Of a DNA stretch of 64,000 bases, positions 32,533 through 53,521 are shown in pieces. How positions within the stretch are numbered: position 1 is the first letter of the stretch; each line of letters starts with the position of its first letter. Made by a program: the position numbers and the translations under genes. Source of the stretch: an uncultured Lutibacter sp. (GTDB lineage Bacteria; Bacteroidota; Bacteroidia; Flavobacteriales; Flavobacteriaceae); assembly GCF_947493565.1 (NCBI RefSeq), contig NZ_CANLRG010000007.1, positions 1 through 64,000 of the forward strand, read 5' to 3'. The notes under the pieces were generated by a model, which did not search any database, was not told the DNA's origin, and saw only the letters and a list, made by a program, of their open reading frames with translations.

Positions 32533-33093
32533 TTATAATCCTTCATCAAATCCTTCAATAGGATTTTCTTTATGTTTCATATTTTCAGTTCGGATTTTAT
32601 CTTGAAGCATTAACATACCTTCCAATAAAGCTTCAGGACGAGGAGGACAACCAGGAACGTAAACATCAACAGGTATTACGTGATCGGCTCCTTTTACTAC
32701 CGAATAAGAGTTGTAAAAGAATGGACCTCCAGAAATTGCACAAGCTCCCATGGCTATCACATATTTTGGCTCTGCCATTTGATCGTATAAACGGCGTAAA
32801 ACAGGTGCCATTTTATTTACAATGGTTCCTGCAATTATAATTAAATCTGCTTGTCGCGGGGAAGGTCTAGCAACTTCAAATCCAAATCGAGAATAATCAT
32901 GGCGTGCTGCTCCAGTTTGCATCATTTCAATGGCGCAACAACTTGTGCCAAAGTAAAGCGACCAAAGTGAATTTGATCGCCCCCAATTAATTATTTTATC
33001 TAATGAAGTAACAATTACGTTAGCTCCATTTCCTGCAGGAATTACTTTTCCTGGGAAATCTTCTGGAATTTCTTGTGTTTTTTCTATTCCCAT
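32533..33093 (-). CDS. nuoB: NADH-quinone oxidoreductase (complex I) subunit B, cluster N2
   Basis: This PSST-type subunit holds the four Cys of cluster N2: the vicinal pair in [10 protein letters not shown], one in MGACAISGG and one in [12 protein letters not shown]. The start is ATG 33093 (186 residues), overlapping nuoA by 10 bp; the longer TTG start at 33114 is less likely. It delivers electrons to quinone. Confidence 0.95.
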
Positions 33094-33434
33094 TTTAATG
33101 CTCCTTTTTTCCAAGCGTATAATAGTCCTAATCCTAAAATTACTAAGAAGATGGTTATTTCAATAAAAGCAACAGCTCCTACATCTTTAAAAACCACTGC
33201 CCATGGAATTAAAAATGCTACCTCTACATCAAATATTAAAAATAAGATGGCAAAAAGGTAATAACCTACTTTAAACTGAACCCAGGTTGGCCCAATTGTA
33301 GTCATACCACTTTCATAAGGTTCTCTTTTTTGAGGGTTATCTGATTTGTGCGAAATTAGATTTGATAAAAAATTTGCTCCCGCAACCAAAACAATCCCAG
33401 CAATTAAAAATACAATAATGGCTTCTGATCCCAT
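33084..33434 (-). CDS. nuoA: NADH-quinone oxidoreductase (complex I) subunit A, first gene of the operon
   Basis: This 116-residue protein has three helices and the signatures [13 protein letters not shown] and [19 protein letters not shown]. It is the promoter-proximal gene of an operon A-B-C-D-H-I-J-K-L-M-N with a small extra gene at the end. nuoE, nuoF and nuoG, which would normally lie between D and H, are absent. A Crp/Fnr-like palindrome and -7 box lie about 85-130 bp upstream. Confidence 0.95.
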
Positions 33435-33494: not shown

Positions 33495-33566
33495 TTTTAA
33501 AGTTTTAAGAAATACGAATACAAATGTATATTAATATAAGAAAACGATAGCTGATAAAAATCAGTT
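33495..33566. repeat. Imperfect direct repeat, copy A (holds the nuoA promoter)
   Basis: It shares with copy B at 33850-33920 the order TTTTTTAAA, (A)TAAGAAA, TACA-A-GTA and GATAGCTGAT followed by the second palindrome arm. Copy A keeps an intact CAAATGTA (-7 box on the minus strand); in copy B the matching position reads CAGAGGTA and is 3 nt closer to the palindrome. Confidence 0.55.
33521..33563 (-). promoter_or_regulatory. nuoA promoter with Crp/Fnr-like operator
   Basis: On the minus strand a perfect palindrome TGATAAAAATCA (33552-33563, inside a 14-bp perfect repeat from 33551 to 33564) is followed after 23 nt by TACATTTG (33528-33521), which matches the Bacteroidota -7 element TAnnTTTG. 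No -33 TTG is evident, as expected for an activator-dependent promoter. A second -7-like box, TACTTTTG, lies closer to nuoA at 33467-33460 without an operator. The operator centre would sit near -40, the class II activator position. Confidence 0.65.
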
Positions 33567-33849
33567 ATTCATGTTACATTTATCACTTAAAGTTTATAGG
33601 TTCTAATTGATAAGAATAAAACATCAGTTTTTTAAAGTTTAGAGTTATTTTACTTGCCTATTTAATGCCTTTGATCTTTTAACTAATATTGTATATTAAT
33701 TAGTATTATTCCAATTATAATAAGCTATTGTGAAAAGTTAATTGGTTTAATATTGGTCTTTTTCTATGGAGATATAGAAAAAGTAAGCCCACTTAAATTA
33801 AGTATATTAAATATAATTTGTAATCTAAAATAGAGGATTAAATAGTTAG

Positions 33850-33920
33850 ATTTTTTTAAATTATAAGAAACATAAGTACAGAGGTAAATCAATTAAAAAA
33901 GATAGCTGATTTTTATCAGC
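33850..33920. repeat. Imperfect direct repeat, copy B (now part of the korB terminator)
   Basis: This copy of the nuoA promoter segment has a degenerate -7 box (33879-33886) but an extended palindrome, GATAGCTGAT/ATCAGCTATC, that forms the terminator stem behind korB. It suggests an ancient duplication of the promoter region with one copy reused as a terminator (inference). Confidence 0.5.
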
Positions 33921-33930
33921 TATCTTTTTT
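33895..33930 (-). terminator. korB terminator hairpin
   Basis: A perfect 10-bp stem (33901-33910 with 33915-33924) and a TTTT loop are flanked by six A and six T, so it would work in both directions. It starts 7 bp beyond the korB stop. It separates korAB from the nuo operon, which then needs its own promoter. Confidence 0.9.
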
Positions 33931-33937
33931 ACAATGA

Positions 33938-34951
33938 TTATTTAACTTCATAGGTTTCGCCAGAGAAGAACAAATCATCAGTTTTTTTGAAATTTGAATT
34001 TGCTTTTACTTGTGCAGTTAGGGCATCTTCTCTTTCTTCAAGTGTTACATCATTATAACTTCTTATAATTCCAGTTGCAATAGGATACTCTAATCGAACT
34101 AACATTTGGTGTAATGTTGGATCTTTTTCTTTGGCATTATGTACTAAAATATCGTCTTCGGTAATTCCATTTTCGCCAATGGTAACTACTTCTAATTTAA
34201 GTCCGTTTAATACCAAACCTTTATTACGATCTTTACCAAAAATCATTGGTTTGCCATCTTCAAGAAATATTTGTTTGTCTTCTTTAACTGCTTTATCCGT
34301 TATATTGGTAAAACAACCATCATTAAAGATTACACAATTTTGTAAAACTTCAATTAATGAAGTTCCTTTAAATTTATGTGCTTCAACAAAAATATTAGAC
34401 ATTTCTTTAGGGTTATTTCCACCAATTCTTGCAAAAAAACGAGCTTGAGCTCCTAATGCTAATTCACCTGGAGAAAAAGGTGGTTGTGTATTTCCATAAG
34501 GAGATGATTTTGTTTTCTGCCCAACTAATGAAGTAGGTGAAAACTGACCCTTTGTTAAACCGTAAATTTCATTGTTAAATAGTACAATATTTAAATCAAT
34601 ATTTCTACGTAACACATGAATAAAGTGGTTTCCACCAATAGCCATAGCATCACCATCGCCTGTCATAACCCAAACACTTAAGTTAGGGTTTGCTAATTTA
34701 ACTCCTGAAGCTATTCCGGGCGCTCTACCGTGAATACTGTGCATTCCATAAGTATTCATATAGTATGGAAAACGAGATGAGCATCCAATACCTGAAATAA
34801 ATACAACTTCTTCTTTTTTAACCCCCATTTCTGGAAGTGCTTTTTGCATAGAACGTAAAATAACATAGTCATCGCAACCAGGACACCATCTTACTTCTTG
34901 ATCGCTAGCAAAATCTTTAAATGTATATTTTTTTACAGCTGTTGTTTCCAT
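33938..34951 (-). CDS. korB: 2-oxoacid:ferredoxin oxidoreductase, beta subunit (KorB type)
   Basis: The protein (337 residues) holds the thiamine pyrophosphate site (VMTGDGDAMAIGGNH ... NNEIYGLTKGQ) and the Cys ligands of a [4Fe-4S] cluster (Cys23 and Cys26 in WCPGCDD, Cys57 in GIGCSSR, and a late Cys near CVIFNDGCF). With KorA it catalyses CoA-dependent oxidative decarboxylation of a 2-oxoacid, most likely 2-oxoglutarate, reducing ferredoxin. Substrate assignment rests on overall similarity to KorB/OforB-type pairs and is not certain. It is 2 bp after korA. It is transcribed towards the nuo operon but is separated from it by a terminator. Confidence 0.9.
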   Translation of the reverse strand: METTAVKKYTFKDFASDQEVRWCPGCDDYVILRSMQKALPEMGVKKEEVVFISGIGCSSRFPYYMNTYGMHSIHGRAPGIASGVKLANPNLSVWVMTGDGDAMAIGGNHFIHVLRRNIDLNIVLFNNEIYGLTKGQFSPTSLVGQKTKSSPYGNTQPPFSPGELALGAQARFFARIGGNNPKEMSNIFVEAHKFKGTSLIEVLQNCVIFNDGCFTNITDKAVKEDKQIFLEDGKPMIFGKDRNKGLVLNGLKLEVVTIGENGITEDDILVHNAKEKDPTLHQMLVRLEYPIATGIIRSYNDVTLEEREDALTAQVKANSNFKKTDDLFFSGETYEVK

Positions 34952-34953
34952 AA

Positions 34954-36813
34954 TTATTTTACTAATTGTTTAAATTTTTCAATTAATTCAGTGTTTCCAA
35001 ATGGTAAGCCTTGAACTTTGTTATATTGTAAAAATTCAAACCCATTAAAATTCATTTTTAATACTTTAGAGAATTGTCCATTGTTTAATTCACAAACAAC
35101 AATTTTTTTGAATTTAGTTAAAATTTCTTCCGTATTTTTAGGAAGAGGATTTATGTAATTAAAATGAGCAAAACCAATATTTTTATAACCTTCTTCTTCG
35201 TTTAGTTGTTTTACAGCTGAATGAAGAGAACCGTAAGTTCCTCCCCAGCCAATTACCAATAAATCACCAGTTTCTGCAAATTCAGTTTCTAAGTTTGGAA
35301 TGTAATTTTGAACACGTTTAACTTTTTCTGCTCTAATATTAGTCATATATTCGTGGTTTTCAGGAACATAAGAAACATTGCCTGTAACCTTGTCTTTTTC
35401 TAAACCACCAATTCTATGTTCTAAACCTGGTGTTCCAGGAATGGCCCAATTTCTAGCTAAAGACTCTTCGTTTCTATCGTACGGGTGCCAGTTTTCTGTA
35501 ACGTCTTTTACAATATTATTTTTTATTTCTGGCATTTCACTAACAGATTTCACTTTCCAAGGAGCGGAACCGTTTGCTATATAACCATCTGTAAGTAAAA
35601 TTACAGGAGTCATATGTTCTAAGGCTAATTTTGCAGCTTGGTAAGCGTAATTAAAACAGTTAGCAGGAGTACTTGCAGCAATTACAATTACAGGACTTTC
35701 ACCATTTCTACCGTATAATGCTTGCAATAAATCAGATTGTTCTGTTTTTGTAGGTAAACCAGTAGAAGGACCACCACGTTGAACATTTACAACCACTAAA
35801 GGTAATTCTACCATCATTGCCAAGCCTAAAGCTTCACCTTTTAAAGCTAATCCAGGACCAGAAGTTGTTGTAATTGCTAAATCTCCAGCAAATGAAGCAC
35901 CAATTGCAGAAGCGATGCCAGCTATTTCATCTTCGGCTTGAAAAGCCTTAACACCAAAATGTTTATGCTTTACTAATTCGTGTAAAATATCTGTAGCTGG
36001 TGTAATTGGATAAGAACCTAAAAATAATTCTAACCCAGATTTCTCAGCTGCAGCTAAAAACCCCCAAGCAGTTGCTGTATTACCCATAATAATTCTATAG
36101 GTTCCAGAAGCCATTTTGGCTGGAGTAATGGTGTAAGCATTTGGAATTAATTCTAAAGTTTCAGCAAAATAAAAGCCTGCATTTAAAACTTTAGTATTAG
36201 CTTCAATGATGTTTGGTTTAGATTTAAATTTTTTGTTGAAAAAATCTATGGTATGCTGAGTAGATCTATCATACATCCAATATACCATACCTAAAGCAAA
36301 CATGTTTTTACTTCGGGTAATACTTTTATTATCTAAACCTTCAACGTCTTTTAAAGCTTCTTTGGTTAAGCTAGACATTGCTACCTCAATAACTCTATAG
36401 TTTTCAAGAGAGCCATCTTCTAAAGGATTAGTTTGGTATTGAGCTTTTTCTAAATTTTTTTTGGTAAAAGCATCAGTATCAATAATAATTGTGTGCCCTG
36501 GTTTTACGGCATGTAAATTGGTTTTTAAACCAGCAGGGTTCATTGCTACCAATAAATCAACATTATCTCCCGGGGTGCTTATTTCTACACTACCTATGTG
36601 AACTTGAAACCCAGAAACTCCATATAAACTTCCTTGTGGAGCTCTAATTTCTGAAGGATAGTTTGGGAAGGTTGCTATGTCATTTCCAAACATTGCAGAG
36701 GTGTCAGAAAACTGAGTTCCTGTCAACTGCATTCCATCACCTGAATCACCAACAAATCGGATAACTACTGCCTCCAATATTTCGGGTTGATGCTTTGTTT
36801 TAGCTGTAACCAT
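34954..36813 (-). CDS. korA: 2-oxoacid:ferredoxin oxidoreductase, fused gamma-alpha subunit (KorA type)
   Basis: The N-terminal about 190 residues are the gamma domain (RFVGDSGDGMQLTGTQFSD, VAMNPAGLKTNLHAVKPG). From about residue 220 the alpha domain follows, with LGSYPITPATDILHELV and TTSGPGLALKGEALGLAMM. The 619-residue gamma-alpha fusion is the usual architecture of aerobic-type and Bacteroidota KorA/OforA. It oxidises a 2-oxoacid with KorB and passes low-potential electrons to ferredoxin. It is divergent from the ferredoxin gene across 171 bp, and both promoters share one palindrome. Confidence 0.92.
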   Translation of the reverse strand: MVTAKTKHQPEILEAVVIRFVGDSGDGMQLTGTQFSDTSAMFGNDIATFPNYPSEIRAPQGSLYGVSGFQVHIGSVEISTPGDNVDLLVAMNPAGLKTNLHAVKPGHTIIIDTDAFTKKNLEKAQYQTNPLEDGSLENYRVIEVAMSSLTKEALKDVEGLDNKSITRSKNMFALGMVYWMYDRSTQHTIDFFNKKFKSKPNIIEANTKVLNAGFYFAETLELIPNAYTITPAKMASGTYRIIMGNTATAWGFLAAAEKSGLELFLGSYPITPATDILHELVKHKHFGVKAFQAEDEIAGIASAIGASFAGDLAITTTSGPGLALKGEALGLAMMVELPLVVVNVQRGGPSTGLPTKTEQSDLLQALYGRNGESPVIVIAASTPANCFNYAYQAAKLALEHMTPVILLTDGYIANGSAPWKVKSVSEMPEIKNNIVKDVTENWHPYDRNEESLARNWAIPGTPGLEHRIGGLEKDKVTGNVSYVPENHEYMTNIRAEKVKRVQNYIPNLETEFAETGDLLVIGWGGTYGSLHSAVKQLNEEEGYKNIGFAHFNYINPLPKNTEEILTKFKKIVVCELNNGQFSKVLKMNFNGFEFLQYNKVQGLPFGNTELIEKFKQLVK

Positions 36814-36880
36814 AATTTATGCTAATTAAAAAATTTTATTTAAATTTATTGAATTAAATTTTATGTTTAAATTTAAGAGT

Positions 36881-36923
36881 CAAATATATAGTTACTTTTT
36901 ATAACAGTAAATGACTTTTGTCA
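36881..36923 (-). promoter_or_regulatory. korA promoter with Crp/Fnr-like operator
   Basis: On the minus strand the palindrome TGACAAAAGTCA (36923-36912) is followed after 23 nt by TATATTTG (36888-36881), a match to TAnnTTTG. The palindrome is the same one that precedes the divergent ferredoxin promoter. There is no clear -33 TTG on this side. Confidence 0.65.
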
Positions 36924-36953
36924 CATTGACTTGCATAAAAATGTATAATTTTG
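36912..36953 (+). promoter_or_regulatory. Ferredoxin gene promoter with shared Crp/Fnr-like operator
   Basis: The palindrome TGACTTTTGTCA (36912-36923) is followed after 22 nt by TAATTTTG (36946-36953), with a -33 TTG at 36926-36928 (17-nt spacing to the -7 box). This is a good Bacteroidota promoter. The operator centre lies about 40 nt before the expected start site. Confidence 0.7.
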
Positions 36954-36984
36954 TAGAATAAATAAATATTAAAAATTAGTAAAC

Positions 36985-37335
36985 ATGGCTATTAAAATAA
37001 CAGATGAATGTATAAACTGTGATGCTTGTATTTCTGAGTGTCCTAACAATGCAATTTACGAACCAGATAGTGAATGGGCGTATTCAGATGAAACAGCTTT
37101 AAGCGGAACTGTGACTTTACCTAGTGGAGGTGAAGCGGATGCTGATGAAATGAATGAACCATTATCTGATGAATTTTACTTTATTGTAACTGATAAGTGT
37201 ACTGAATGTAAAGGTTTCCATGATGAACCACAATGTGCTTCTGTTTGTCCAGTTGATTGTTGTGTTCCTGATGAAGATCATGAAGAAACAGAAGAACAGT
37301 TATTAGGCAAAAAAGCTTGGTTACACGGAGAATAA
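36985..37335 (+). CDS. 2[4Fe-4S] ferredoxin, Alvin type
   Basis: The 116 residues bind two [4Fe-4S] clusters: Cys9, 12, 15, 19 in CINCDACISECP, and the extended second set Cys72, 75, 84, 88 in CTECKGFHDEPQCASVCP, whose CX2CX8CX3CP spacing is that of Chromatium-type low-potential ferredoxins. An acidic 45-residue linker separates the motifs, longer than in the classical protein. It lies divergent from korA, so it is the probable electron acceptor of KorAB and a candidate donor to the NuoEFG-less complex I (inference). A strong terminator follows, so it is monocistronic. Confidence 0.93.
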   Translation: MAIKITDECINCDACISECPNNAIYEPDSEWAYSDETALSGTVTLPSGGEADADEMNEPLSDEFYFIVTDKCTECKGFHDEPQCASVCPVDCCVPDEDHEETEEQLLGKKAWLHGE

Positions 37336-37354
37336 TTTATCATCATTTAATTAT

Positions 37355-37403
37355 AAAGAAGCAGTCTAAAAAGGAAATTAATTTCTTTTTAGACTGCTTC
37401 TTT
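37355..37403 (+). terminator. Ferredoxin gene terminator
   Basis: The arms at 37355-37378 and 37381-37403 pair along their whole length with a single bulged G at 37374 or 37373 and a 2-nt loop. The stem is GC-containing in the middle (GCAGTCT) and T-rich sequence follows. It starts 20 bp beyond the ferredoxin stop codon. Confidence 0.88.
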
Positions 37404-37426
37404 ATTTTCAATTATTTTTGTAATTA

Positions 37427-37906
37427 ATGAAAAATAAAAAATCATATACAGTAGATGAAGCTACTAAGGTGTTAGAATATTTTTGTAGTTATCAGGAAAG
37501 AAGCCATAAAGAGGTTGAAAAAAAGTTATATGATTTAAAGATGATACCAGCTGCAAAAGAAAAAATTATCCTTCATCTAATACAACATAACTTTTTAAAT
37601 GAAGAACGTTTTTCTAAAGCATTTGCAAGAGGGAAATTTTCAATAAAAAAATGGGGTAAACTTAAAATTATTAATGAACTAAAGTTTAGAGATATTTCTT
37701 CTTATAATATTATAACAGCATTAAAAGAAATTGATGATCAAGAATATAAAAATACATTACAAGCGTTAGCAGAAAAAAAAATAAAATTGATAAAAGAAAC
37801 TAACTATTTTAAAAAAAGAGCGAAGCTTTCAGCTTTTTTAATTTCTAAGGGATATGAAACATCATTGGTTTATGAAATAGTTAATCAATTATTTTCAGAG
37901 GAATAA
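37427..37906 (+). CDS. recX: RecX regulatory protein (RecA modulator)
   Basis: The protein (159 residues, normal length) is built of three-helix RecX repeats with the typical first-repeat segment YTVDEATKVLEYFCSYQERSHKEVEKKL, the second-repeat LIQHNFLNEERFSKAFARGKF and the conserved KKWGKLKIINELKFRDIS. It binds RecA filaments and inhibits or modulates recombination. recA is not in this window. It converges with the lipoprotein gene, sharing a bidirectional terminator. Confidence 0.93.
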   Translation: MKNKKSYTVDEATKVLEYFCSYQERSHKEVEKKLYDLKMIPAAKEKIILHLIQHNFLNEERFSKAFARGKFSIKKWGKLKIINELKFRDISSYNIITALKEIDDQEYKNTLQALAEKKIKLIKETNYFKKRAKLSAFLISKGYETSLVYEIVNQLFSEE

Positions 37907-37937
37907 AAAGAGGTAAATTAATTTACCTCTTTTTATT
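37902..37937. terminator. Bidirectional terminator between recX and the convergent lipoprotein gene
   Basis: A perfect 36-nt palindrome (17-bp arms 37902-37918 and 37921-37937, TA centre) has an AGAGGTAAAT core flanked by A and T runs on both sides. It overlaps the recX stop codon and ends 5 bp before the stop of the minus-strand gene. Confidence 0.9.
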
Positions 37938-37942
37938 ATAAA

Positions 37943-38641
37943 CTAGTTTATAATTTTAAATTGAAAAATTTCAGAAGTTGATGAGTTATTACTATTGTCT
38001 TTAGTAATCACGTTCCAATAATAAGTGTTTCCTTGGCTAACAACAACGTTCTCTATTTTTTGAGTGGATGTAGTGCTTAGTAATTCAGTTGGTGGATTTA
38101 CAGTTCCAAAATATACATCATATTCTTTTATATCGCCATCAACATCACTTCCATTCCATTCTAAAGTAACATTTTCACCGCTTATGGATGAGCCTAAACT
38201 AGGGTTAATTACTTCTGCAGGGAATGGGGCATAAGATTTTACAGCATCTCCAGCATTGTAGAATTTCCACTCAGAGCTTTTAGCAGTGTTGGTGGCTTCG
38301 GAATTTTTTGAAATAACCCACCATTTATAAGGAGTATTTTTATTTAATATAGCTGTGCTAAAGTTACTTGTGGTATTGGTATTGAAATTTGTATTGGTCA
38401 ATAAATTTCTAATTACTAAGGTATATGAAGTGGTGTTGGTTGAAACATTCCATTCAAAATTTATTTTGCTTTGTGTACTATTAATGCTTTCACCAGTGTT
38501 ACATTCTTCATTATTAATTGGAAAAGTTAGTATAGCAGCAGTTGGAGGATCTACAATTACTGGATCCGGATTGTCTTTACCGCCACAACTTAAAAAGATA
38601 CTGATAATCCCTAAATTAAAAAGGATGTTTAATTTTTTCAT
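37943..38641 (-). CDS. Lipoprotein with two fibronectin-III-like domains
   Basis: ATG 38641 opens a lipoprotein signal with lipobox IFLSCGG, followed by a Pro-rich linker and two FN3-like beta-sandwich domains (INFEWNVSTNTTSYTLVI ... YKWWVIS, and VTLEWNGSDVDGDIKEYDVYF ... YYWNVITKDNSNNSS). There is no enzymatic motif. It starts 1 bp after the stop of the giant Asp-box/TSP3 protein, so the two are co-transcribed and the lipoprotein may anchor or assist that surface protein (inference). The longer TTG start at 38650 would overlap the upstream gene and is less likely. Confidence 0.75.
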   Translation of the reverse strand: MKKLNILFNLGIISIFLSCGGKDNPDPVIVDPPTAAILTFPINNEECNTGESINSTQSKINFEWNVSTNTTSYTLVIRNLLTNTNFNTNTTSNFSTAILNKNTPYKWWVISKNSEATNTAKSSEWKFYNAGDAVKSYAPFPAEVINPSLGSSISGENVTLEWNGSDVDGDIKEYDVYFGTVNPPTELLSTTSTQKIENVVVSQGNTYYWNVITKDNSNNSSTSEIFQFKIIN

Positions 38642-38642
38642 A

Positions 38643-41600
38643 TTATTCAATTATTATATTGAAGCTTCTAGTTACTTCTTTAGATTCTAAATTTAATATA
38701 TACATTCCTTTAGGTAAATGTTTGGTGCTGATTTCAATTCTTTTTTGTGGATTGTTTAAATAAATATTGGTTGATAATATACTACCTAAAGTATTTAGAA
38801 TTGAAATTTTAATGTTATTTGATTTGATATATCCAGTAGTTAAAAATAAGCTTCTATGTTGTTTTACAGGGTTTGGATATAATTTAATTCCTTCAAAAGG
38901 AACTATAAATGATTCCAAATGCTCACCTTGGCAAGCAGTTTCTGTAGTTACTTTAAGTTTGTTGATGCCTGGTTTTAATGCTAATTTTAACGAAGATTCA
39001 AATGTTTTGGTAGTTACTCCGTTTAAAGTTACAAAGTAATTGGTGCTACCGTTTAAGGTAACGATAACTGATTTTGAATGTGCATTAACTTTGGATGAAA
39101 CAGCTAAATCTTCAGGTTCTGTTATTACTGCATTAAAGCAAATTTCATAGTCAGGTTGATCTTCAACAGTTATACATATCGTATAATTACCAGCTTCTAG
39201 GTTATTAAATGTAATGTTATTTGTAAATTCTTTAGAAGTTGAACTTCCACTTCCTGTAATTATTGCTGTGTAATTTAAATTTTCTGTAGCTTTTAATACA
39301 ATATATCCATTATTATTTGCTCTACAAGTTTCTCCATAAATTTCTAATAAAAAGTTGGTTGTTGGTAAGCTAAATAAAGTACAGCCATTTACATCCACTG
39401 AATCATTAATAGGTGTATCGTTACAGCTATCATAATAATTCAGTACACCATCATTATCTATATCATCATCACAAATGTCGCCAATTCCATCATTATCAAA
39501 ATCTTCTTGATTTGGATTTACTTTATAAGGACAATTATCGGTATCATTTGTAATACCATCTCCATCAATATCCTCATCACAAACATCACCTATCCCATCA
39601 TTATCTGTATCTTCTTGGTTAGGGTTTGCAGTTAATGGACAATTGTCATTTGCATCTAATATTCCATCATCGTCATCATCGTCATCACATATGTTTCCAA
39701 TTCCATCATTATCTGTATCTTCTTGGTTAGGGTTAACAGTTAATGGGCAATTGTCATTGTTGTCAAAAATAGTATCATTATCAGAATCTTCACAAACATC
39801 ACCAACCCCGTTATTGTTAAAGTCATTTTGATCAGGATTGTAATTAAATGGACAATTGTCATTTACATCGAATATTCCATCGTTGTCGTCATCCTCATCA
39901 CAAACATCACCTATCCCATCATTATCATTGTCTAGTTGATCTATATTAGCATTTTCAGGACAGTTGTCAATAAGGTTAACTATTCCGTCTTCATCACTAT
40001 CTTCACAAATATCTCCAATACCATTGTTATTAAGATCAATTTGATTAGTGTTTGGGGTTAGTGGACAATTGTCATTCACATCTAAAATTCCATCATTGTC
40101 GTCATCTTCATCACAAACATCACCTATTCCGTCGGCATCAGTATCTAGCTGATTTTCATTTGGAGTGTATGGGCAATTGTCAATATCGTCAACTATTCCA
40201 TCATTGTCAGCATCTTCATCACAAACATCACCAATTCCATCATTATCGGAGTCTTCTTGGTTTGGATTGGCTATTGTAGGACAATTATCATTTACATCTA
40301 AAATTCCATCATTATCGTCATCGGTATCATTTATTCCTTCTTCAACAATAATAAAATCATCAATTACAATACCTTCTTGGTTTTCTGCGGTATCAGAATG
40401 AAAAACAAATCTGAATAACACATTTCCTTTAGAGTTTAATGAAGATAAATTGTATGAATATTCTTTCATTTCAGTATCGGTACCTGTCCATTGGGCACCA
40501 GGACAATTTTGACAATCATTTGAAAAGCCAGAAGAAGCATTTGTTCTATTACTATTGTACCAACTAGGATCGTTATTAGTTCCTAAAATTTCCCAGTTTT
40601 TCCCATTATTTAATGAATATTCAATATAAATAATATCCCAATTTTCTTCTAAATCGTAAATCATTTTAAATTTAAAGGTAGGAGAAATTAATGAGGATAA
40701 ATCATAGTATTTAGAAACTATGTAGCTCTTTTTTAAGTCGTTGTAATTTCCTGTTAAATTTGTTGCGTAAGCATTAGTCCCTGAACCTGTTGTATTAAGT
40801 AATGTTCCGTTTGGGTTACCAATGCTCCATTCTGTTGAAAAAATATCGTCTTCATTGTAGGATAGTAATTCTTCGTTTTCATCTTCAAAAGAATTTAAAA
40901 TATTAGGTACTGTTTTTCTGTTTGAAACAAAAGAAGTTGATAAAGTGTTGTTTTCTGGGAAAGCATCTCCATCTACAGTTACTTCAATATTTAAGCTATG
41001 CTTTCCATATTCTATGGGTATATTAGGGATGGTAATAATACCCGTAGAGTTTTTACCAATTAAGCCATTCCATTGGTAACTTTTTTCTTCGTTAGTATCT
41101 AATTTATACTTAACAAAAACTTTATCTATAGGCTTTATACCTTTGTTTTCAGCTTTTAACTTAATAGTAAAATTGTCTTCTAAAATATTAGATATTGTAG
41201 GAGATACAATTTCTAATAATCTTATTTCAGATTCAGGAAGTTCCACAGAAATATCCGATTGCCAAATACCTCTACCATAGGTTCCTGCAGTTATTTTAGC
41301 ATCATCTAGCGAAATTTCTAAATCTCGTATTGGTACTGTAGGTAAATTATTAGAAAAAGAAGCCCACTCATTAGCGGTGTCATCTAACCTAAAAACACCT
41401 AAACTTGTTCCAATATAAATAGGGTTATCTTTATGTCTTCCCTGATGTACTATGTCAAAAAAAGCTTGATTTGTTGGTAGATTGTAAGTAATATTAGTAA
41501 ATGTTTCTCCATTGTCTACAGATTTATAAATACCTCTTTGTCCATATCCTGATGTACATACATAAATGATATTGCTATTACTACTATGAACAGCGATTGA

Positions 41601-43478
41601 TGAAATATTAGCTTCAAAAGAGTGTTTTAAATTAAAATTTAAACCTTTATCAATACTTTGATAAAAGTTTTTATCTACACCTACATAAATACTATTAGTA
41701 TCATTAGCATCAATTTCTAATTCATCAATTTTGCCTTCAAAAGTAGATGATACTTTAATAAATTCAGAGCCAGTAAAATGATATAAGCTTGTATAACCGG
41801 CGTAAAGTTCTCCATCCTTATTAATTTCTAAAGGAGTTACCCAATTACCTTCTTCTGGGCCTCCAAAACTAGAGATTCTATTTTCACCAGCATTGGTTGA
41901 AATGTTTAATGAACCTCCATACTGGGTAAACCCATAATATTTATTTTCATTATTTGGATCTACTGCATTGTCCATTCCATCACCTCCGTGATAATTACTC
42001 CAATCTCCATTATTTGTTAAGCCAAAGCCTCCATTGTCTTGTAATCCACCCGCAATTTTATTTGAATTTCTTGCTGAAACAGAAATTTTATAAAATTGTC
42101 CAATTTGCATGCCTTGAGTATAATCTTGAAAAGTAGTACCATGATCAGTACTTTTATAAAACCCACCATCAGTTCCTGCAAATAGTTCATTATTATAAAA
42201 ACGTAAAAAATGGATATCTGCATGTGTAAATGAGGCTGTATGGTGCGACCAATTATTTAGTTTGTTAAAGCCTACACCACCAGACATAGATCTCCAAATA
42301 TTTAAACAACCTACATATATTTCTTCAGGGTTTGTATCTGAAACAGCTAAAGCTAGGTCATACCAAGCCTGATCACTTTCTAATATATTTACAGTATTAG
42401 ATGTTTTTGAAAAATTTTCACCACTATCTATTGATTTGTAAATGCCTTGATAATTATATTCTAAATCAGCACTTAATACATATAAATAACTAGGGTTTGC
42501 AGGTGTAACGTCTATAACTAATCTACCAGATGTAACTGGTAATCCAATAGTTTTTTGTTCAAAATTATTACCTCCATCAATCGATTTAAAAATTTTAGAT
42601 TTAGTTGCAATATAAATAGTATTTGGATCTAAAGGTTTTAACTTAATATCTTTAATATTACCTGCAATTTTTTGGAGCCAAGTATCTCCTCCATTAGTTG
42701 TTTTATATAATCCATTATTTGTAGCTACCCATAATACTTCAGGGTTGTCAGGGTGGATATAAATATCATTCATTGAATCAGGTGTGTTGTTAGGATTTAA
42801 ACCTGTTTCGTTCCAAGTTTTTCCACCATCAATTGATTTAAAGACTCCTGCACTATAAGTATCAGAGGCATCATCATCTCCTGTAGCAATGTAAATGGTA
42901 TTGGAATCACTAGGATGAATTGCTATTCCTGAAACACCTATTTGTGGTAAGTTGTCTGAAAGAGGAACCCAGGTTAAACCTTTATCAATTGATTTCCAGA
43001 TACCTCCAGCCGGAGTGCCTACATATATGATATTTTCATTATTAGGATCAGGAAGTATTACGTTTACCCTTCCTAAATTTGCAGTTGAAGTTTTATGATT
43101 AATTAATGTGTTAGGCCCAAAAGGCATCCAATTACTATCGTTAGAATTAGCATTTGTTTCAAAAGTTTGAATATTAGTTTTCCATGAATTCCATAATTTA
43201 GAAGAGTTTGGTAAATAACCATTTTTATCGGTAAAATGCTTCCAAAATTCTTCCCATCTTTTAAAAGGTTTGTAACCACTCCCTTTTTTAGTATAATCTT
43301 TACCTTTCCAATATTCATTAAACATTGATGATATTTCAGTTAATGAAAGTTGATCTGTACCTCCTTTTTTAAATTGGGTTTTATATTTGGATTGCATCCA
43401 AGGCGCTGTTTCATTGTACTGAGCTTGAACACTAGTAAAAGAAATAAACAACCCGAGCAATAGTAGAAAATTTTTCAT
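38643..43478 (-). CDS. Giant T9SS-secreted protein with Asp-box (BNR) propeller, TSP3 repeats and sorting domain
   Basis: ATG 43478 opens a clean signal peptide (FLLLLGLFISFTSVQAQ), so it is preferred over TTG 43496. Residues about 130-740 hold at least nine Asp-box motifs (for example GGIWKSIDKGLTWVPLS, AGVFKSIDGGKTWNE, RGIYKSVDNGETFTN), the pattern of sialidase or sortilin-like propellers. Next come a CARDB-like beta domain, a carbohydrate-binding-like jelly roll (EENWDIIYIEYSLNNGKNWE), eight full plus one partial thrombospondin type 3 repeats rich in DxDxDG, and a C-terminal T9SS sorting domain (GIKLYPNPV ... GMYILNLESKEVTRSFNIIIE). No catalytic residues of a known hydrolase are evident. 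It is likely a Ca2+-stabilised surface binding protein. Confidence 0.88.
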   Translation of the reverse strand: MKNFLLLLGLFISFTSVQAQYNETAPWMQSKYKTQFKKGGTDQLSLTEISSMFNEYWKGKDYTKKGSGYKPFKRWEEFWKHFTDKNGYLPNSSKLWNSWKTNIQTFETNANSNDSNWMPFGPNTLINHKTSTANLGRVNVILPDPNNENIIYVGTPAGGIWKSIDKGLTWVPLSDNLPQIGVSGIAIHPSDSNTIYIATGDDDASDTYSAGVFKSIDGGKTWNETGLNPNNTPDSMNDIYIHPDNPEVLWVATNNGLYKTTNGGDTWLQKIAGNIKDIKLKPLDPNTIYIATKSKIFKSIDGGNNFEQKTIGLPVTSGRLVIDVTPANPSYLYVLSADLEYNYQGIYKSIDSGENFSKTSNTVNILESDQAWYDLALAVSDTNPEEIYVGCLNIWRSMSGGVGFNKLNNWSHHTASFTHADIHFLRFYNNELFAGTDGGFYKSTDHGTTFQDYTQGMQIGQFYKISVSARNSNKIAGGLQDNGGFGLTNNGDWSNYHGGDGMDNAVDPNNENKYYGFTQYGGSLNISTNAGENRISSFGGPEEGNWVTPLEINKDGELYAGYTSLYHFTGSEFIKVSSTFEGKIDELEIDANDTNSIYVGVDKNFYQSIDKGLNFNLKHSFEANISSIAVHSSNSNIIYVCTSGYGQRGIYKSVDNGETFTNITYNLPTNQAFFDIVHQGRHKDNPIYIGTSLGVFRLDDTANEWASFSNNLPTVPIRDLEISLDDAKITAGTYGRGIWQSDISVELPESEIRLLEIVSPTISNILEDNFTIKLKAENKGIKPIDKVFVKYKLDTNEEKSYQWNGLIGKNSTGIITIPNIPIEYGKHSLNIEVTVDGDAFPENNTLSTSFVSNRKTVPNILNSFEDENEELLSYNEDDIFSTEWSIGNPNGTLLNTTGSGTNAYATNLTGNYNDLKKSYIVSKYYDLSSLISPTFKFKMIYDLEENWDIIYIEYSLNNGKNWEILGTNNDPSWYNSNRTNASSGFSNDCQNCPGAQWTGTDTEMKEYSYNLSSLNSKGNVLFRFVFHSDTAENQEGIVIDDFIIVEEGINDTDDDNDGILDVNDNCPTIANPNQEDSDNDGIGDVCDEDADNDGIVDDIDNCPYTPNENQLDTDADGIGDVCDEDDDNDGILDVNDNCPLTPNTNQIDLNNNGIGDICEDSDEDGIVNLIDNCPENANIDQLDNDNDGIGDVCDEDDDNDGIFDVNDNCPFNYNPDQNDFNNNGVGDVCEDSDNDTIFDNNDNCPLTVNPNQEDTDNDGIGNICDDDDDDDGILDANDNCPLTANPNQEDTDNDGIGDVCDEDIDGDGITNDTDNCPYKVNPNQEDFDNDGIGDICDDDIDNDGVLNYYDSCNDTPINDSVDVNGCTLFSLPTTNFLLEIYGETCRANNNGYIVLKATENLNYTAIITGSGSSTSKEFTNNITFNNLEAGNYTICITVEDQPDYEICFNAVITEPEDLAVSSKVNAHSKSVIVTLNGSTNYFVTLNGVTTKTFESSLKLALKPGINKLKVTTETACQGEHLESFIVPFEGIKLYPNPVKQHRSLFLTTGYIKSNNIKISILNTLGSILSTNIYLNNPQKRIEISTKHLPKGMYILNLESKEVTRSFNIIIE
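39380..40330 (-). repeat. Thrombospondin type 3 calcium-binding repeat array (8 full plus 1 partial)
   Basis: About 36-residue units with the pattern DxDxDGIxDxxDNCPxxxNxxQxDxDxDGIGDxC are encoded in tandem inside the giant protein. Units differ at the DNA level, so this is an older array than the HYR repeats at the window start. Each unit is expected to bind Ca2+ ions. Confidence 0.9.
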
Positions 43479-43655
43479 AAAAAATAATTTCACCAAATGT
43501 AAAATAATATTTTTTTAAACGTATCTTAATATGCTAATTCAAATGAGTAATTATTAATTTTTATGAAATTAAAACTTGATTTCAAATTCAAGTATAACAT
43601 TTATAATGAAAATTTAAAAACTTTCTTTTTTAATGAATAGTTGTACTTAGGGTGC

Positions 43656-43698
43656 TGATTTTAATCACAATTTATAATCTAGTTATTTAATAAATTTG
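43656..43698 (+). promoter_or_regulatory. Promoter of the MORN-like gene with Crp/Fnr-like operator
   Basis: The palindrome TGATTTTAATCA (43656-43667) is followed after 23 nt by TAAATTTG (43691-43698), matching TAnnTTTG. This is the same spacing as at nuoA, korA and the methylmalonyl-CoA operon. The gene starts 34 bp further on at 43733. Confidence 0.6.
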
Positions 43699-43732
43699 AG
43701 TAATTATTTATGGTTGATCAAAATTATTAGTT

Positions 43733-44089
43733 ATGAAAAAAATAGTTACACTTGTTTTACTAGCTTTAGCATCTATTAGCTATGCTCAAAATACATCATT
43801 AAAAGAAATCAATATTAAAGGAAATTTAACCGAAGTTACTCTGTTTTATGAAAATGGAATGGTCATGCAACATGGGTTTTATACAAAAGAAGGAAAATTA
43901 CATGCTTCATGGGAAAGTTATAATCTAGATGGAAGTTTGAAATGTTATGCCACCTATAATAATGGTATTAAAGTTGGTGTTTGGACCTATTGGAGTGAAA
44001 ATAAAATAACTAAGGTGAAATATAAAGACAATAGAATAATTAATATTATTGAGGTTGATAAAGATAAGCGAATCAAAAACAGTTATTAA
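43733..44089 (+). CDS. Secreted MORN-repeat-like (YwqK-type) small protein
   Basis: This 118-residue protein has a signal peptide (MKKIVTLVLLALASISYAQ) and short beta-hairpin repeats in the MORN/YwqK style: VTLFYENGMVMQHGFYTKEGKLH, WESYNLDGSLKCYATYNNG and KVGVWTYWSENKITKVKY. Such repeats are structural and common in Bacteroidota periplasmic or surface proteins; no reaction can be assigned. The gene is monocistronic and its stop lies 1 bp from the stop of the convergent lipoprotein gene. Its promoter has the same operator layout as the energy-metabolism genes in this window, which is unexpected for a structural protein. Confidence 0.75.
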   Translation: MKKIVTLVLLALASISYAQNTSLKEINIKGNLTEVTLFYENGMVMQHGFYTKEGKLHASWESYNLDGSLKCYATYNNGIKVGVWTYWSENKITKVKYKDNRIINIIEVDKDKRIKNSY

Positions 44090-44090
44090 T

Positions 44091-44693
44091 TTAATTGTCT
44101 TTTTTTGAAGAGACCCTAGTAGGAATTTTTCTAATAGTTGGTTTTCTATGTTCAGGCTCTAATTCAATAGGTGTTTCGATATCAATTTCTAAAGAGTTTT
44201 GTAAGTCTTCAGCTTTGTAAATGGTATTAATTTTTGAATTAACGGACGCATATAAATTCAAAATTTTTCCAACTTCTTCATTTACTTCTTCTTCTGTAAT
44301 AGATGGTATTTTTGCCATATCGGCCAATCGTAATGCTTCATTATGGAGCACATTAAAACGTGCAATAACATTTAAGGTATTTAGTTTATCAACTCTAATG
44401 GTATCTTTCATTAATTTTACTAAATCTGATAGTTCTTTAGAATATACCAAAGCTTCCATTGTTGAAATATTGTAATATTTCAACATAAACTCATCTAAGT
44501 TTTGATATTCTTTCCAATTAGCTAGCTCTTTTTTTGCTTTTGGTATTAAGGTTTCCCCAATAGTATTAACTATTCTACTCGAATCAATTTTTATTGAATC
44601 AATTACTTCATTAACATTTTTTGTCGTTTTGTTTTTATTGCACGAAGTATTTAAACTTAAAATAATGATTAAAAAACCAATTAGATATTTCAT
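44091..44693 (-). CDS. Lipoprotein of unknown function, mainly helical
   Basis: This 200-residue protein has a lipoprotein signal (IIILSLNTSCNKN) and a predicted helical mature part (ELANWKEYQNLDEFMLKYYN, LARFN/VLHNEALRLADMAKI-like segment, EEEVNEEVGKILNLYASVNSK), ending in a basic tail (RKPTIRKIPTRVSSKKDN). No domain is recognised. A TACTTTTG box at 44720-44713 on the minus strand may be its -7 element. The gene is divergent from tdh and convergent with the MORN-like gene. Confidence 0.65.
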   Translation of the reverse strand: MKYLIGFLIIILSLNTSCNKNKTTKNVNEVIDSIKIDSSRIVNTIGETLIPKAKKELANWKEYQNLDEFMLKYYNISTMEALVYSKELSDLVKLMKDTIRVDKLNTLNVIARFNVLHNEALRLADMAKIPSITEEEVNEEVGKILNLYASVNSKINTIYKAEDLQNSLEIDIETPIELEPEHRKPTIRKIPTRVSSKKDN

Positions 44694-44836
44694 AATTATA
44701 GCTTAGAATTGTCAAAAGTACTAATAAATCTACTTTTAATTTTTAAAAATTCATTTTTAATAAAATTGCTAATAAAATAACTATAAATTTTAATTTTCAG
44801 TATCTTTGAAGCTAAATTAAACTGTTTTTTTATCAA

Positions 44837-45793
44837 ATGAATAAGCGTATATTAATTATTGGTGCATGTGGACAAATAGGTACAGAATTAACTTTGAAAT
44901 TGCGTGAAATTAATGGAGAAAATGCTGTAGTAGCTTCAGATATTAGAGAAGGTAATGAAGAGTTGATGAGCTCTGGTCCATTTGAATTTATAAACGCAAT
45001 GGACTATAATTCAATTTTAAAAATTATTGAAAAATACCAAATCAATGAAGTTTATTTAATGGCCGCTATGCTTTCAGCCACAGGTGAAAAATACCCAGCA
45101 AAAGCTTGGGAATTAAATATGACCTCGTTATTTAATGTTTTAAATTTGGCTAAAGAAGGAAAAATTGAAAAACTATTTTGGCCAAGTTCAATAGCGGTTT
45201 TTGGACCAACAACCCCAAAAGAAAATACTCCACAAGAAACCATTATGGAACCTTCAACAGTATATGGTATTAGCAAACAAGCAGGTGAGCGTTGGTGTGA
45301 GTACTATTTTAATAAATTTGGAGTTGATGTAAGAAGTATAAGATATCCTGGAATCATCAGTTGGAAAGCGGATCCAGGAGGAGGGACTACGGATTATGCT
45401 GTAGAAATTTACCACAATGCATTGTTACACGGTAAATACGATTCTTTTTTGAGTAAAGATACAAAGCTACCAATGATGTATATGGATGATGCTATTGATG
45501 CAACTATTAAAATTATGGATGCTGATGCATCAACAATTAAGGTAAGATCATCTTATAATTTAGCAGCAATGAGTTTTACTCCTGAAGAAATAGCCATTGA
45601 AATTAAAAAAATTGTTCCAAAATTTGAAATTACCTACCATTCTGATTTTAGACAAAATATAGCAGATAGTTGGCCAAAAAGTATTGACGATTCTAGAGCA
45701 AGAGAAGATTGGGGATGGAAACATAACTTTAATCTTGAAAAAATGTCAAAAAACATGATTGAGAGTCTTCACATTAGATATGATGAAATGTAG
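44837..45793 (+). CDS. tdh: SDR-type L-threonine 3-dehydrogenase
   Basis: This 318-residue extended-SDR protein has the NAD motif GACGQIG (8-14), the catalytic YGISK, and the family-specific segment RYPGIISWKADPGGGTTDYA found in the short-chain threonine dehydrogenases of Flavobacterium and Cupriavidus. That segment separates it from UDP-sugar epimerases. It oxidises L-threonine to 2-amino-3-ketobutyrate with NAD+, the first step to glycine plus acetyl-CoA. No kbl gene lies beside it. A TATCTTTG box at 44801-44808 may be its -7 element, and a hairpin terminator follows. Confidence 0.9.
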   Translation: MNKRILIIGACGQIGTELTLKLREINGENAVVASDIREGNEELMSSGPFEFINAMDYNSILKIIEKYQINEVYLMAAMLSATGEKYPAKAWELNMTSLFNVLNLAKEGKIEKLFWPSSIAVFGPTTPKENTPQETIMEPSTVYGISKQAGERWCEYYFNKFGVDVRSIRYPGIISWKADPGGGTTDYAVEIYHNALLHGKYDSFLSKDTKLPMMYMDDAIDATIKIMDADASTIKVRSSYNLAAMSFTPEEIAIEIKKIVPKFEITYHSDFRQNIADSWPKSIDDSRAREDWGWKHNFNLEKMSKNMIESLHIRYDEM

Positions 45794-45816
45794 TTAAATT
45801 ATTAATATTTAATTAG

Positions 45817-45845
45817 AAAGGCTCGAAGAATTTTGAGCCTTTTTT
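45817..45845 (+). terminator. tdh terminator
   Basis: An 8-bp stem AAAGGCTC / GAGCCTTT (45817-45824 and 45835-45842) with a 10-nt loop and a T-run on the plus strand starts 23 bp after the tdh stop. Confidence 0.85.
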
Positions 45846-45994
45846 GTTAAAAGTTATTACATGCAACGTTGTTTTATAAACAACTTTATTAACATTGAAA
45901 ACAATAATTTAATTAAAATTATATGTAGTAGTCTATCAGCTATTTAAGTGTTTAAAAAATTTAATAAAACGTTTTAGTAATTTAATTTAAATTA

Positions 45995-46037
45995 TGATAT
46001 CTGTCATCTTTTTAAAATTTAGGATACCCTAATTTTG
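45995..46037 (+). promoter_or_regulatory. Promoter of the methylmalonyl-CoA operon with Crp/Fnr-like operator
   Basis: The palindrome-like site TGATATCTGTCA (45995-46006; ATGAY...RTCAT with flanks) is followed after 23 nt by TAATTTTG (46030-46037). No -33 TTG lies 17-23 nt upstream of the -7 box, consistent with dependence on an activator. Confidence 0.65.
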
Positions 46038-46117: not shown

Positions 46118-46525
46118 ATGAATATTTCACATATAGAACACATCGGGATAGCCGTAGAAAATTTAGACGAATCCATTAAATATTATGAAGAGGTCTTAGG
46201 AATGAAATGCTATGCGATAGAAGAGGTTGTTGATCAAAAGGTGAAAACAGCCTTTTTTTTGGTAGGTAACACAAAAATTGAATTATTAGAAAGCACTTCT
46301 CCAGAAGGACCAATAGGAAAATTTATAGAAAAGAAAGGGCAAGGCATTCATCACATTGCGTTTGCAGTTGATAATGCTACTGAAGCTTTAAAGTTAGCTG
46401 AAGAAAGAGGAGTAAAATTAGTGGATAAGGTTTCAAGAAAAGGTGCTGAAGGATTAAACATAGGTTTTCTTCATCCAAAATCAACACAAGGAGTGTTAAC
46501 AGAACTATGTTCTAAAGAAGAGTAA
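46118..46525 (+). CDS. mce: Methylmalonyl-CoA epimerase
   Basis: This 135-residue vicinal-oxygen-chelate protein has the metal ligands spread over two beta-alpha-beta3 modules ([32 protein letters not shown], and the late Glu in GVLTELC). Length and motifs match methylmalonyl-CoA epimerase closely, not glyoxalase I. It interconverts the (R) and (S) forms of methylmalonyl-CoA, linking the mutase to the decarboxylase. It is the first gene of the operon, 17 bp before the carboxyltransferase gene, which supports the assignment. Confidence 0.93.
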
Positions 46526-46542
46526 AAAGAAAAAATATTACA

Positions 46543-48102
46543 ATGGCAAATCAAGATAAAATTAACGAACTCATTGAAAAGAGAGTTAAAGCAAAACTAG
46601 GTGGAGGTGAAAAAAGAATTGAATCTCAACACGCTAAAGGAAAATTAACTGCGCGTGAGAGAATTGAAATTCTTTTAGATGAAGATAGTTTTGAAGAATT
46701 TGACATGTTTGTAACTCACAGAACTAAATCATTTGGGTTAGATAAACAAGTTTACCTATCGGATGGTGTAGTTACAGGGCATGGAACAATTGATGGAAGA
46801 ATAGTTTATGTATTCTCTCAAGACTTTACCGTTTTTGGAGGTTCATTATCGGAAACTTATGCGTTAAAAATTTGTAAAATTATGGATATGGCCATGAAAA
46901 TTGGTGTACCTGTAATTGGGTTAAATGATAGTGGTGGAGCTCGTATTCAAGAAGGAGTTAGATCTTTAGCGGGATATGCAGAAATTTTCCAAAGAAATAT
47001 CATGGCATCAGGTGTAATTCCACAAATTTCATCAATATTAGGCCCTTGTGCTGGTGGAGCTGTATATTCTCCTGCGTTAACAGATTTTACAGTGATGACC
47101 GATCAAACTAGTTATATGTTTGTTACCGGACCAAAGGTGGTACAAGCTGTAACTGGTGAAGTCGTTACAACTGAGCAATTAGGTGGGGCAAATATTCACT
47201 CTACTAAATCTGGAGTTTCTCACTTTTTAGCCGAAACTGATGAAGAAAACTTAATGCTTATTAGAAAGTTAATGAGCTACCTTCCATCTAATAATTTAGA
47301 AGACCCTCCAGCAATTAAATGTGATGATCCAATTGATAGATTGGACGATATTTTAAATGAAATAATTCCAGAAAACCCAAATCAACCATATGATATAGTT
47401 GATGTGATTGCTACCATAGTTGATAATGGTGAGTTTACAGAAGTTCATAGAAATTATGCAAGAAATATTTGTGTTGGATTTGCCCGTTTTAATGGACGTT
47501 CTGTTGGTATTGTTGCAAATCAACCAAAATATTATGCGGGTGTTTTAGATACAGAAGCATCTAGAAAAGCAGCAAGATTTGTTCGTTTTTGTGACGCGTT
47601 TAACATTCCAATTGTAACATTAGTTGATGTGCCTGGTTTCTTACCGGGAACAGGGCAAGAATATGGAGGGATTATTTTACATGGAGCAAAATTATTATTT
47701 GCTTATGGTGAAGCGACAGTACCAAAAGTAACCATTACTTTACGCAAATCATATGGTGGAGCACATGATGTAATGAGTTGTAAACAATTACGAGGAGATT
47801 TAAACTATGCTTGGCCAACAGCAGAGATAGCTGTAATGGGAGCTAAAGGTGCAGTTGAAGTATTAGAAGGTTCTAACATAAGAAAAATTGAAGATGCAGA
47901 AGAAAAATTAGAATACATCGAAAAGAAAGAAGATGAGTATAACGATAAATTTGCAAACCCTTATGAAGCTGCCAAATATGGTTTTATAGATGATGTAATT
48001 GAACCTAGAAATACTCGTTTCAGAGTTATTAGAGCGTTGGAGTTATTAGCCAATAAAAAGGAAATAAATCCACCAAAAAAACATTCAAATATTCCATTAT
48101 AA
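46543..48102 (+). CDS. mmdA: Methylmalonyl-CoA decarboxylase/propionyl-CoA carboxylase carboxyltransferase subunit
   Basis: This 519-residue acyl-CoA carboxyltransferase has both crotonase-like halves: [20 protein letters not shown] and [16 protein letters not shown] in the N-half, and [18 protein letters not shown] and [13 protein letters not shown] in the C-half. It moves the carboxyl group between methylmalonyl-CoA and carrier-bound biotin. The downstream OadG-like, biotin-carrier and OadB subunits, and the lack of a biotin carboxylase gene, indicate a Na+-pumping decarboxylase and not an ATP-driven carboxylase. Its stop overlaps the next start by 1 bp. Confidence 0.92.
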
Positions 48103-48461: not shown

Positions 48462-48525
48462 CTGAATTATAGATTATTTGTTAATGGTTTTAAGTTAAAA
48501 CTATCAACAAACAAACATAAAGAAA

Positions 48526-53516: not shown

Positions 53517-53521
53517 GAGGT

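Follow-up and report, generated by a model that had tools for sequence, protein, structure and literature searches.

Do promoters spread over 64 kb of flavobacterial DNA answer to one oxygen-responsive regulator? The question arose from a sequence-only reading of the window, by which we mean the whole 64,000-nucleotide (nt) stretch analysed here (positions 1 to 64,000 of contig NZ_CANLRG010000007.1, assembly GCF_947493565.1, from an uncultured Lutibacter sp.). Palindromes of the form TGAYnnnnRTCA had been described there at a nearly constant distance from -7 boxes (TAnnTTTG), in front of nuoA, the divergent korA and ferredoxin genes, a MORN-like gene and the mce operon for methylmalonyl-CoA decarboxylation. 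We consider it likely that all five act as class II-type activator promoters within a global, FNR-like low-oxygen regulon, in which binding, activation, an Fe-S cluster and the oxygen response are predicted from sequence.

All four palindromes and all five boxes are present at the positions claimed for them, and each box matches the -7 consensus TAnnTTTG of the Bacteroidota primary sigma factor. The gaps between palindrome and box, said to be 22 or 23 nt, measure 23, 23, 22, 23 and 23 nt for nuoA, korA, the ferredoxin gene, the MORN-like gene and mce, and the palindrome at 36912 is paired in both directions, as proposed. Taken alone, the two halves were rejected as evidence, since neither is clearly enriched in the window: the palindrome was found 8 times versus 4.61 expected (at least 8 in 13 of 100 shuffles), the -7 box 127 times versus 126.28. 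The composite with a spacing of 22-23 nt (N22-23) occurs five times and appeared in none of 400 order-2 simulations of the approximately 3.2 kb of non-ORF sequence, an approximate mask built from open reading frames (ORFs) of at least 100 amino acids (aa), and in none of 120 simulations of the whole window. The equal frequency in shuffled DNA that would have spoken against the motif was thus not found in 520 simulations. With spacings of 8 to 38 nt allowed, the window yielded those five composites and no others, which leaves the palindromes at 31862, 33907, 37269 and 53863 without a partner box in this range. That is, the signal is the pairing of palindrome and -7 box, not either half.

The same pairing was found in the rest of the genome (G000; 3.10 Mb in 37 contigs), where the recommended scan, run with free spacing (8-38), gave 47 matches versus 5 for a backward-pattern control. 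Spacings of 22, 23 and 24 nt accounted for 9, 23 and 4 matches, the remaining 28 spacings together for 11, so that 36 of the 47 composites fall at 22-24. The five window composites are real members of this genome-wide set of about 36 sites. Free-spacing counts also exceeded the backward control in 24 of 24 genomes of the genus that were searched (13-46 versus 1-23). Bacteroidota primary-sigma promoters carry a TTG element near -33, and its absence was considered as a sign of activator dependence. At gaps of 14-21 nt, no single gap placed TTG in more than 2 of the 36 composites; because the 12 other intergenic boxes used for comparison show TTG only once, this comparison has no power and the argument was unusable. 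Class II Crp/Fnr activators bind sites centred near -41.5. Using the position of the TAnnTTTG box in Flavobacterium psychrophilum (-12 to -5, PMC9723704), a gap of 23 nt puts the palindrome at -47 to -36 with its centre at -41.5, and a gap of 22 nt gives -40.5. One shared class II-type promoter geometry, as the sequence-only reading had it, is therefore supported, with the centre predicted from the F. psychrophilum box.

Conservation was analysed upstream of orthologous genes. For korA, 79 of 80 loci were usable (at least 100 nt upstream), the closest named ones being from L. litoralis, L. oceani and L. agarilyticus (89-91% identity). The palindrome is present in 74 of them and the full composite in 66, all with N23; allowing spacings of 8-38 added one composite, at 38. 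On the ferredoxin side, the exact composite was found in 23 of the 79 loci. Among the best 30 mce matches from the 38 genus genomes, 29 were usable, own locus included: all 29 carry the palindrome, 20 the TAnnTTTG composite, and all 29 a TAnnTTTR box at exactly N23. The cleanest conservation control is provided by the MORN-like gene. Loci of at least 50% identity, including our own, have the palindrome in 14 of 14 cases and the composite in 11, versus neither in 16 distant homologues (36-40% identity). Conservation in relatives, whose lack had been named as grounds for doubt, is thus found for the korA, mce and MORN-like sites, and it supports joint control of the ferredoxin-linked enzymes and the methylmalonyl-CoA operon. 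The nuoA part of that claim is weak, as detailed below.

What does the genome-wide set control? Of the 36 sites at spacing 22-24, 34 precede an ORF of at least 60 aa that starts within 330 nt, one gene being preceded by two such sites; for the other two (L030, L044) no such ORF was found in that distance. Gene labels stem from Pfam matches and reading of the sequences, with HemG, NapA, CcoI and NorC named from sequence. The targets comprise the cbb3 maturation ATPase (CcoI), cbb3 subunit I, a NorC-like cytochrome, a NapA-type molybdopterin (nitrate) reductase and an NrfD/Fer4 protein. They also include pyruvate phosphate dikinase (PPDK), pyruvate formate-lyase, phosphoenolpyruvate carboxykinase (PEPCK), a flavodoxin-type protein resembling HemG, a ResB-like protein and FeoA/FeoB. 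Another site stands before a ferredoxin gene, behind which a second 2-oxoacid oxidoreductase is encoded. Further targets are two Usp proteins, a PAS/GAF protein, a SulP permease, an ArsR-type regulator and Hsp20, and several others lack any family match. The suspected link to oxygen is well supported by this content of the rest of the regulon, while the oxygen response itself is a prediction.

The best candidate for the regulator is a 228-aa FNR-like protein encoded outside the window, divergent from a cbb3 maturation gene; its binding to the palindromes and its response to oxygen are predicted. PF00027, PF13545 and PF00325 all score over cut-off, giving a cNMP (cyclic nucleoside monophosphate)-binding-like domain and a Crp-type helix-turn-helix, and all 38 genomes of the genus contain a match at E<=1e-40. 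At 29 of 30 fnr-like loci, our own included (L001, L257-L285), a palindrome lies upstream. On the side away from fnr its gap is 22 nt in 28 loci and 21 in one, the opposite gene having been read as ccoI in our own genome only. Toward the fnr -7 box the gap is 10 nt in 14 of 30 loci and 33 in 3. With a gap of 10 nt the site would overlie the fnr promoter, centred near -28.5, which suggests autorepression. Across 196 genomes of the order, 149 of which contain the motif, site density was 2.52 per Mb where a match reached E<=1e-40 (85 genomes, backward control 0.16), 1.44 in 18 genomes with weaker matches (control 0.08) and 0.73 in 93 genomes without a match (control 0.14), a comparison that ignores kinship. 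Restriction to genomes of 1.4-2.6 Mb gave 2.78, 1.04 and 0.81 sites per Mb (11, 13 and 42 genomes, respectively). Two other Crp proteins (L002, L004) were set aside as regulators; their helices (SRVVVSR) lack the E of the E...R pair.

We propose that upon oxygen limitation a dimer of the FNR-like protein would bind TGAYnnnnRTCA centred around -41.5 and would touch RNA polymerase that sits at the -7 box with the Bacteroidota primary sigma factor. A single palindrome could serve two divergent promoters, at korA/ferredoxin as well as at fnr/ccoI. The programme would include the cbb3 oxidase, NapA-type nitrate reductase, NorC-like cytochrome, pyruvate formate-lyase, FeoAB, PEPCK and PPDK, to which the window would add complex I, 2-oxoacid:ferredoxin oxidoreductase with its ferredoxin, and Na+-coupled methylmalonyl-CoA decarboxylation (succinate to propionate). 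For the latter pathway mmdA, the gamma subunit, a biotin carrier, a Na+-transporting beta subunit, the epimerase and the mutase are all encoded.

Several findings weigh against this reading. At the level of sites, 5 of 79 korA loci lack the palindrome, and nuoA is a weak member of the regulon, particularly outside the genus: 67 of 80 loci were usable, with the palindrome in 31 and the composite in 16 (8 of 15 Lutibacter-titled loci versus 8 of 52 others). The free-spacing count of one genus genome (G008) is only narrowly above its control (33 versus 23), in another (G024) 20 of 38 matches fall at 22-24 and 18 are scattered outside, and dipeptidyl peptidase IV, a FadL-like porin, a fasciclin and two MetA-pathway-type proteins are unusual targets for FNR. 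At the level of the regulator, one fnr locus (L269) has no upstream palindrome, and the density in genomes without an FNR-like match exceeds its control. Three genomes that lack the FNR orthologue (G076, G139, G204), each with a receiver-Crp protein, hold 18 sites. Four of these fall within ORFs, and among the rest are sites upstream of ccoN-like and hemN-like genes (G076) and usp genes (G076, G204). In our own genome, the helices of two receiver-Crp fusions (IATETFIR and IATESLIR; two of three read) are near-identical to TATESAIR of the FNR-like protein. Physiological data point both ways. A Lutibacter isolate is described as growing slowly and fermenting without oxygen, and the volatile fatty acids of that study's anoxic cultures after 4 days included propionate and succinate, the species not being named and several acids occurring in oxic cultures too; Lutibacter volatile fatty acids were negligible after 2 days of anoxia (PMC10939381). 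L. profundi, a nitrate reducer with genes for cbb3 and denitrification, is reported not to grow anaerobically by fermentation or on nitrate (PMC5219744). These findings leave the role proposed for the propionate operon neither proven nor excluded.

The last two objections concern the cysteines. Aligned by phmmer to PDB chain 9qlt_A ('FNR type regulator'), C4, C7 and C106 match cysteines 29, 32 and 131, and N13 matches cysteine 38; an offset of 9 turns these into Cys20, 23, 122 and 29. As given in PMC6659574, the ligands of E. coli FNR are Cys20, 23, 29 and 122. All 30 close orthologues, ours among them, share C4, C7, C53 and C106, and position 13, the equivalent of Cys29, is S, N or T in each (N in ours). 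The canonical ligand set is thus incomplete, and we class the protein as FNR-like. The second objection comes from family f5, where all six best matches examined (L286-L289, L297, L298, from 6 of the 28 f5 genomes) keep TATESAIR and lack all four cysteines, and where sites reach 2.18 per Mb; the motif therefore does not need a cluster. Among 17 more distant homologues from other genomes, those six included, 10 have all four cysteines (L290-L296, L299-L301), one of which (L296) has a cysteine at position 13 in addition, and L302 (32% identity, perhaps a paralogue) lacks C53 only. The four cysteines are present together in 30 of 30 close orthologues and 10 of 11 further CxxC homologues and absent together in the six from f5. 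Since a serine at position 13 is not conserved and C53 is invariant, C53 would be the better candidate for a fourth ligand, and C4, C7, C53 and C106 would hold an oxygen-labile Fe-S cluster. Whether the Flavobacteriales carry a distinct FNR lineage is close to an open bet, on which we lean slightly to the negative side: here the cluster would sit on CxxC, C53 and C106, the fourth ligand having moved from Cys29 to the beta-roll, the four cysteines would form one unit, and f5 would have kept the regulon and lost the oxygen switch.

How does this system compare with known ones? FNR of E. coli and its relatives, which activates class II promoters, has the recognition helix E--SR (Ser212) and the site TTGAT-N4-ATCAA. 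The Lutibacter protein shares the Crp/Fnr fold, the TGA half-site core with N4, the predicted centre at -41.5, the equivalents of Cys20, Cys23 and Cys122 and many typical target genes. It differs in the S/N/T at the Cys29 position, the extra invariant Cys53 and the helix, which reads TATESxIR in 30 of 30 close orthologues (TATESAIR in ours), so that E and R are invariant and I replaces Ser212. The search pattern already fixed the core TGAY-N4-RTCA; in the outer half-site base the sites differ and show no preference for that of FNR, whose T stands on the left in 6 of 36 sites and whose A stands on the right in none. The -7 box is TAnnTTTG. FNR of Acidithiobacillus ferrooxidans likewise keeps Cys20, 23 and 122 and lacks Cys29, and PMC6659574 proposes Ser29 as ligand and disfavours Cys40; in contrast, the proteins compared here have S, N, T, Q or A at the equivalent of position 29, with C in 1 of 40, and C53, at about FNR position 70, is invariant. 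F. psychrophilum shares the box position used above, and its cbb3 oxidase and heme genes are induced by oxygen limitation, whereas the main text of that study contains neither 'Crp' nor 'palindrom' (PMC9723704).

Is there only one regulator? The sequence-only reading inferred so, and this part of it is not established: next to its single FNR-like protein the genome has three receiver-Crp fusions, and the two fusion helices that were read are near-identical to that of the FNR-like protein. Several Crp/Fnr proteins with a shared helix might use the same palindromes and integrate oxygen (FNR-like) with a phosphorelay (receiver-Crp). Besides the helices, the composite in front of the PAS/GAF gene and the presence of both regulator types in 32 of 38 genus genomes favour such an arrangement, and the sites in the three FNR-lacking genomes make shared use likely at some promoters; no subclass of sites is assignable to either regulator. 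We hold this arrangement to be plausible but the lesser bet.

Another reading, in which the sites belong mainly to the fusions and the FNR-like protein controls a subset only, appears unlikely. In rhizobia, FixLJ-FixK exerts microaerobic control through a phosphorelay-driven Crp-type regulator with cbb3 targets; in the Lutibacter genome, receiver and Crp domains are joined in one protein, so that a fusion could act as a FixJ-FixK-like relay. The number of fusions, the two helices close to that of the FNR-like protein, the composite directly following each fusion gene (likewise in G076 and G204) and the sites that FNR-lacking G076 keeps upstream of its ccoN-like and usp genes speak for this. 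The distribution speaks against it, with fusions at E<=1e-50 in 32 of 38 genus genomes versus 38 of 38 for the FNR-like protein, and in at least 21 of the 196 genomes of the order (E<=1e-60, at most 10 candidates per genome scored) versus 149 with the motif. The exact composite follows the C8-type fusion in only 2 of 10 genus loci, own included. G007 and G017, where no receiver-Crp protein was found at E<=1e-50 with every candidate scored, retain sites: G007 gives 30 free-spacing matches versus 6 in the control, and G017 keeps the mce composite (L151). Likewise G008, with no fusion among 54 of 83 candidates scored, keeps the mce (L159) and MORN-like (L204) composites. The sites thus do not appear to require the fusions.

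A CRP-like regulator that senses a metabolite and not oxygen is quite improbable. Such sensing has been predicted, for carbon, for Crp/Fnr homologues in a Flavobacteriales metagenome-assembled genome (PMC8510549), and the cysteine-free f5 orthologues would fit it. MalR/BT4338 of Bacteroides thetaiotaomicron is also a Bacteroidota Crp-family activator with its site upstream of a putative -7 box; it works under carbon limitation and its proposed palindrome, wwwTATGTTnTAnAACATAwww, is unlike TGAYnnnnRTCA (PMC6989115). Against a metabolite sensor stand the anaerobic or microaerobic character of much of the regulon and the four cysteines, invariant in close orthologues. Finally, a chance meeting of two AT-rich motifs, neither of which is clearly commoner in the window than in shuffled DNA, can be dismissed given the spacing peak, the empty simulations and the conservation of sites in near but not distant homologues.

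The low-oxygen FNR-like regulon that we favour would give the Flavobacteriaceae a concrete, testable oxygen regulon with the promoter grammar TGAYnnnnRTCA-N22/23-TAnnTTTG. It predicts that a sediment bacterium induces ferredoxin-linked 2-oxoacid metabolism and Na+-pumping conversion of succinate to propionate when oxygen is low. Ferredoxin enzymes and Na+-pumping propionate formation would then stand alongside respiration of nitrate and high-affinity respiration of oxygen in a marine member of the Flavobacteriaceae. It further points to an FNR-like sensor with a non-textbook cysteine layout, and to a lineage (f5) that apparently keeps the DNA code of the regulator and loses the cysteines. An FNR regulon as such is already known; what varies here is how the site is placed relative to a Bacteroidota -7 box, the changed helix and site flanks, and the way the cysteines are arranged. 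In searches of the open PMC library, no title or abstract was found that deals with this composite motif or a Flavobacteriaceae FNR regulon, which is weak evidence of absence, as most subscription papers lie outside that scope.

The features are listed in Table 1. Orientation and short gaps suggest that the eight genes of the mce block probably form a single operon.

Table 1. Promoter elements, genes behind them and candidate regulators. Positions are those of the window unless a contig of genome G000 is given.
Feature	Position	Strand	Remarks
nuoA promoter palindrome, FNR-type, TGATTTTTATCA (read on -)	33552..33563	-	23 nt before -7 box
nuoA -7 box TACATTTG	33521..33528	-	gap 23
Palindrome TGACTTTTGTCA, common to divergent korA and ferredoxin genes	36912..36923		
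korA -7 box TATATTTG	36881..36888	-	gap 23
Ferredoxin gene -7 box TAATTTTG	36946..36953	+	gap 22
MORN-like gene palindrome TGATTTTAATCA	43656..43667	+	23 nt before -7 box
MORN-like gene -7 box TAAATTTG	43691..43698	+	gap 23
mce operon palindrome TGATATCTGTCA	45995..46006	+	23 nt before -7 box
mce operon -7 box TAATTTTG	46030..46037	+	gap 23
nuoA, complex I subunit A	33084..33434	-	Pfam PF00507
korB, 2-oxoacid:ferredoxin oxidoreductase beta	33938..34951	-	TIGR02177 (just under cut-off) and PF02775
korA, 2-oxoacid:acceptor oxidoreductase alpha	34954..36813	-	TIGR03710 over cut-off
YfhL-family 2x[4Fe-4S] ferredoxin	36985..37335	+	NF033683 over cut-off
MORN-like 118-aa protein of no assigned function	43733..44089	+	PF07661 match below Pfam cut-off
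Probable mce operon, eight genes	46118..55654	+	
mce (epimerase)	start 46118	+	
mmdA	start 46543	+	TIGR01117 strong but below curated cut-off
Oxaloacetate decarboxylase (OAD) gamma	start 48102	+	
Biotin carrier	start 48526	+	
Na+-transporting OAD beta type subunit	start 49001	+	
Acetyl-CoA hydrolase/transferase family protein	start 50377	+	
Two methylmalonyl-CoA mutase subunits	starts 51708, 53522	+	
FNR-like protein, 228 aa, outside the window	G000:C1:53765-54448	-	divergent from cbb3 maturation gene
Receiver-Crp fusion L003	G000:C8:15289-16347		composite directly after, C8:16364
Receiver-Crp fusion L013	G000:C2:17797-18852		composite directly after, C2:17698
Receiver-Crp fusion L011	G000:C1:364150-365193		composite directly after, C1:364070

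Some minor observations remain. The use of korA as a regulator test in FNR-lacking genomes led nowhere, with no korA match at E<=1e-100 in the four genomes tried (G076, G139, G204, G109). In the window, a further palindrome TGATTTTTATCA lies at 33907-33918 immediately beyond the korB stop codon; no spacing from 8 to 38 gives it a -7 box. Elsewhere in the genome, tandem composites (G000:C2:350588 and 350674) precede one 64-aa protein without Pfam match (L017). At two of the three fusions the gene following fusion and composite is usp, and the order of fusion then composite also occurs in G076 and G204. The composite of the PAS/GAF protein (L015) was located at G000:C2:208685, and this protein is a possible partner of the receiver-Crp fusions.

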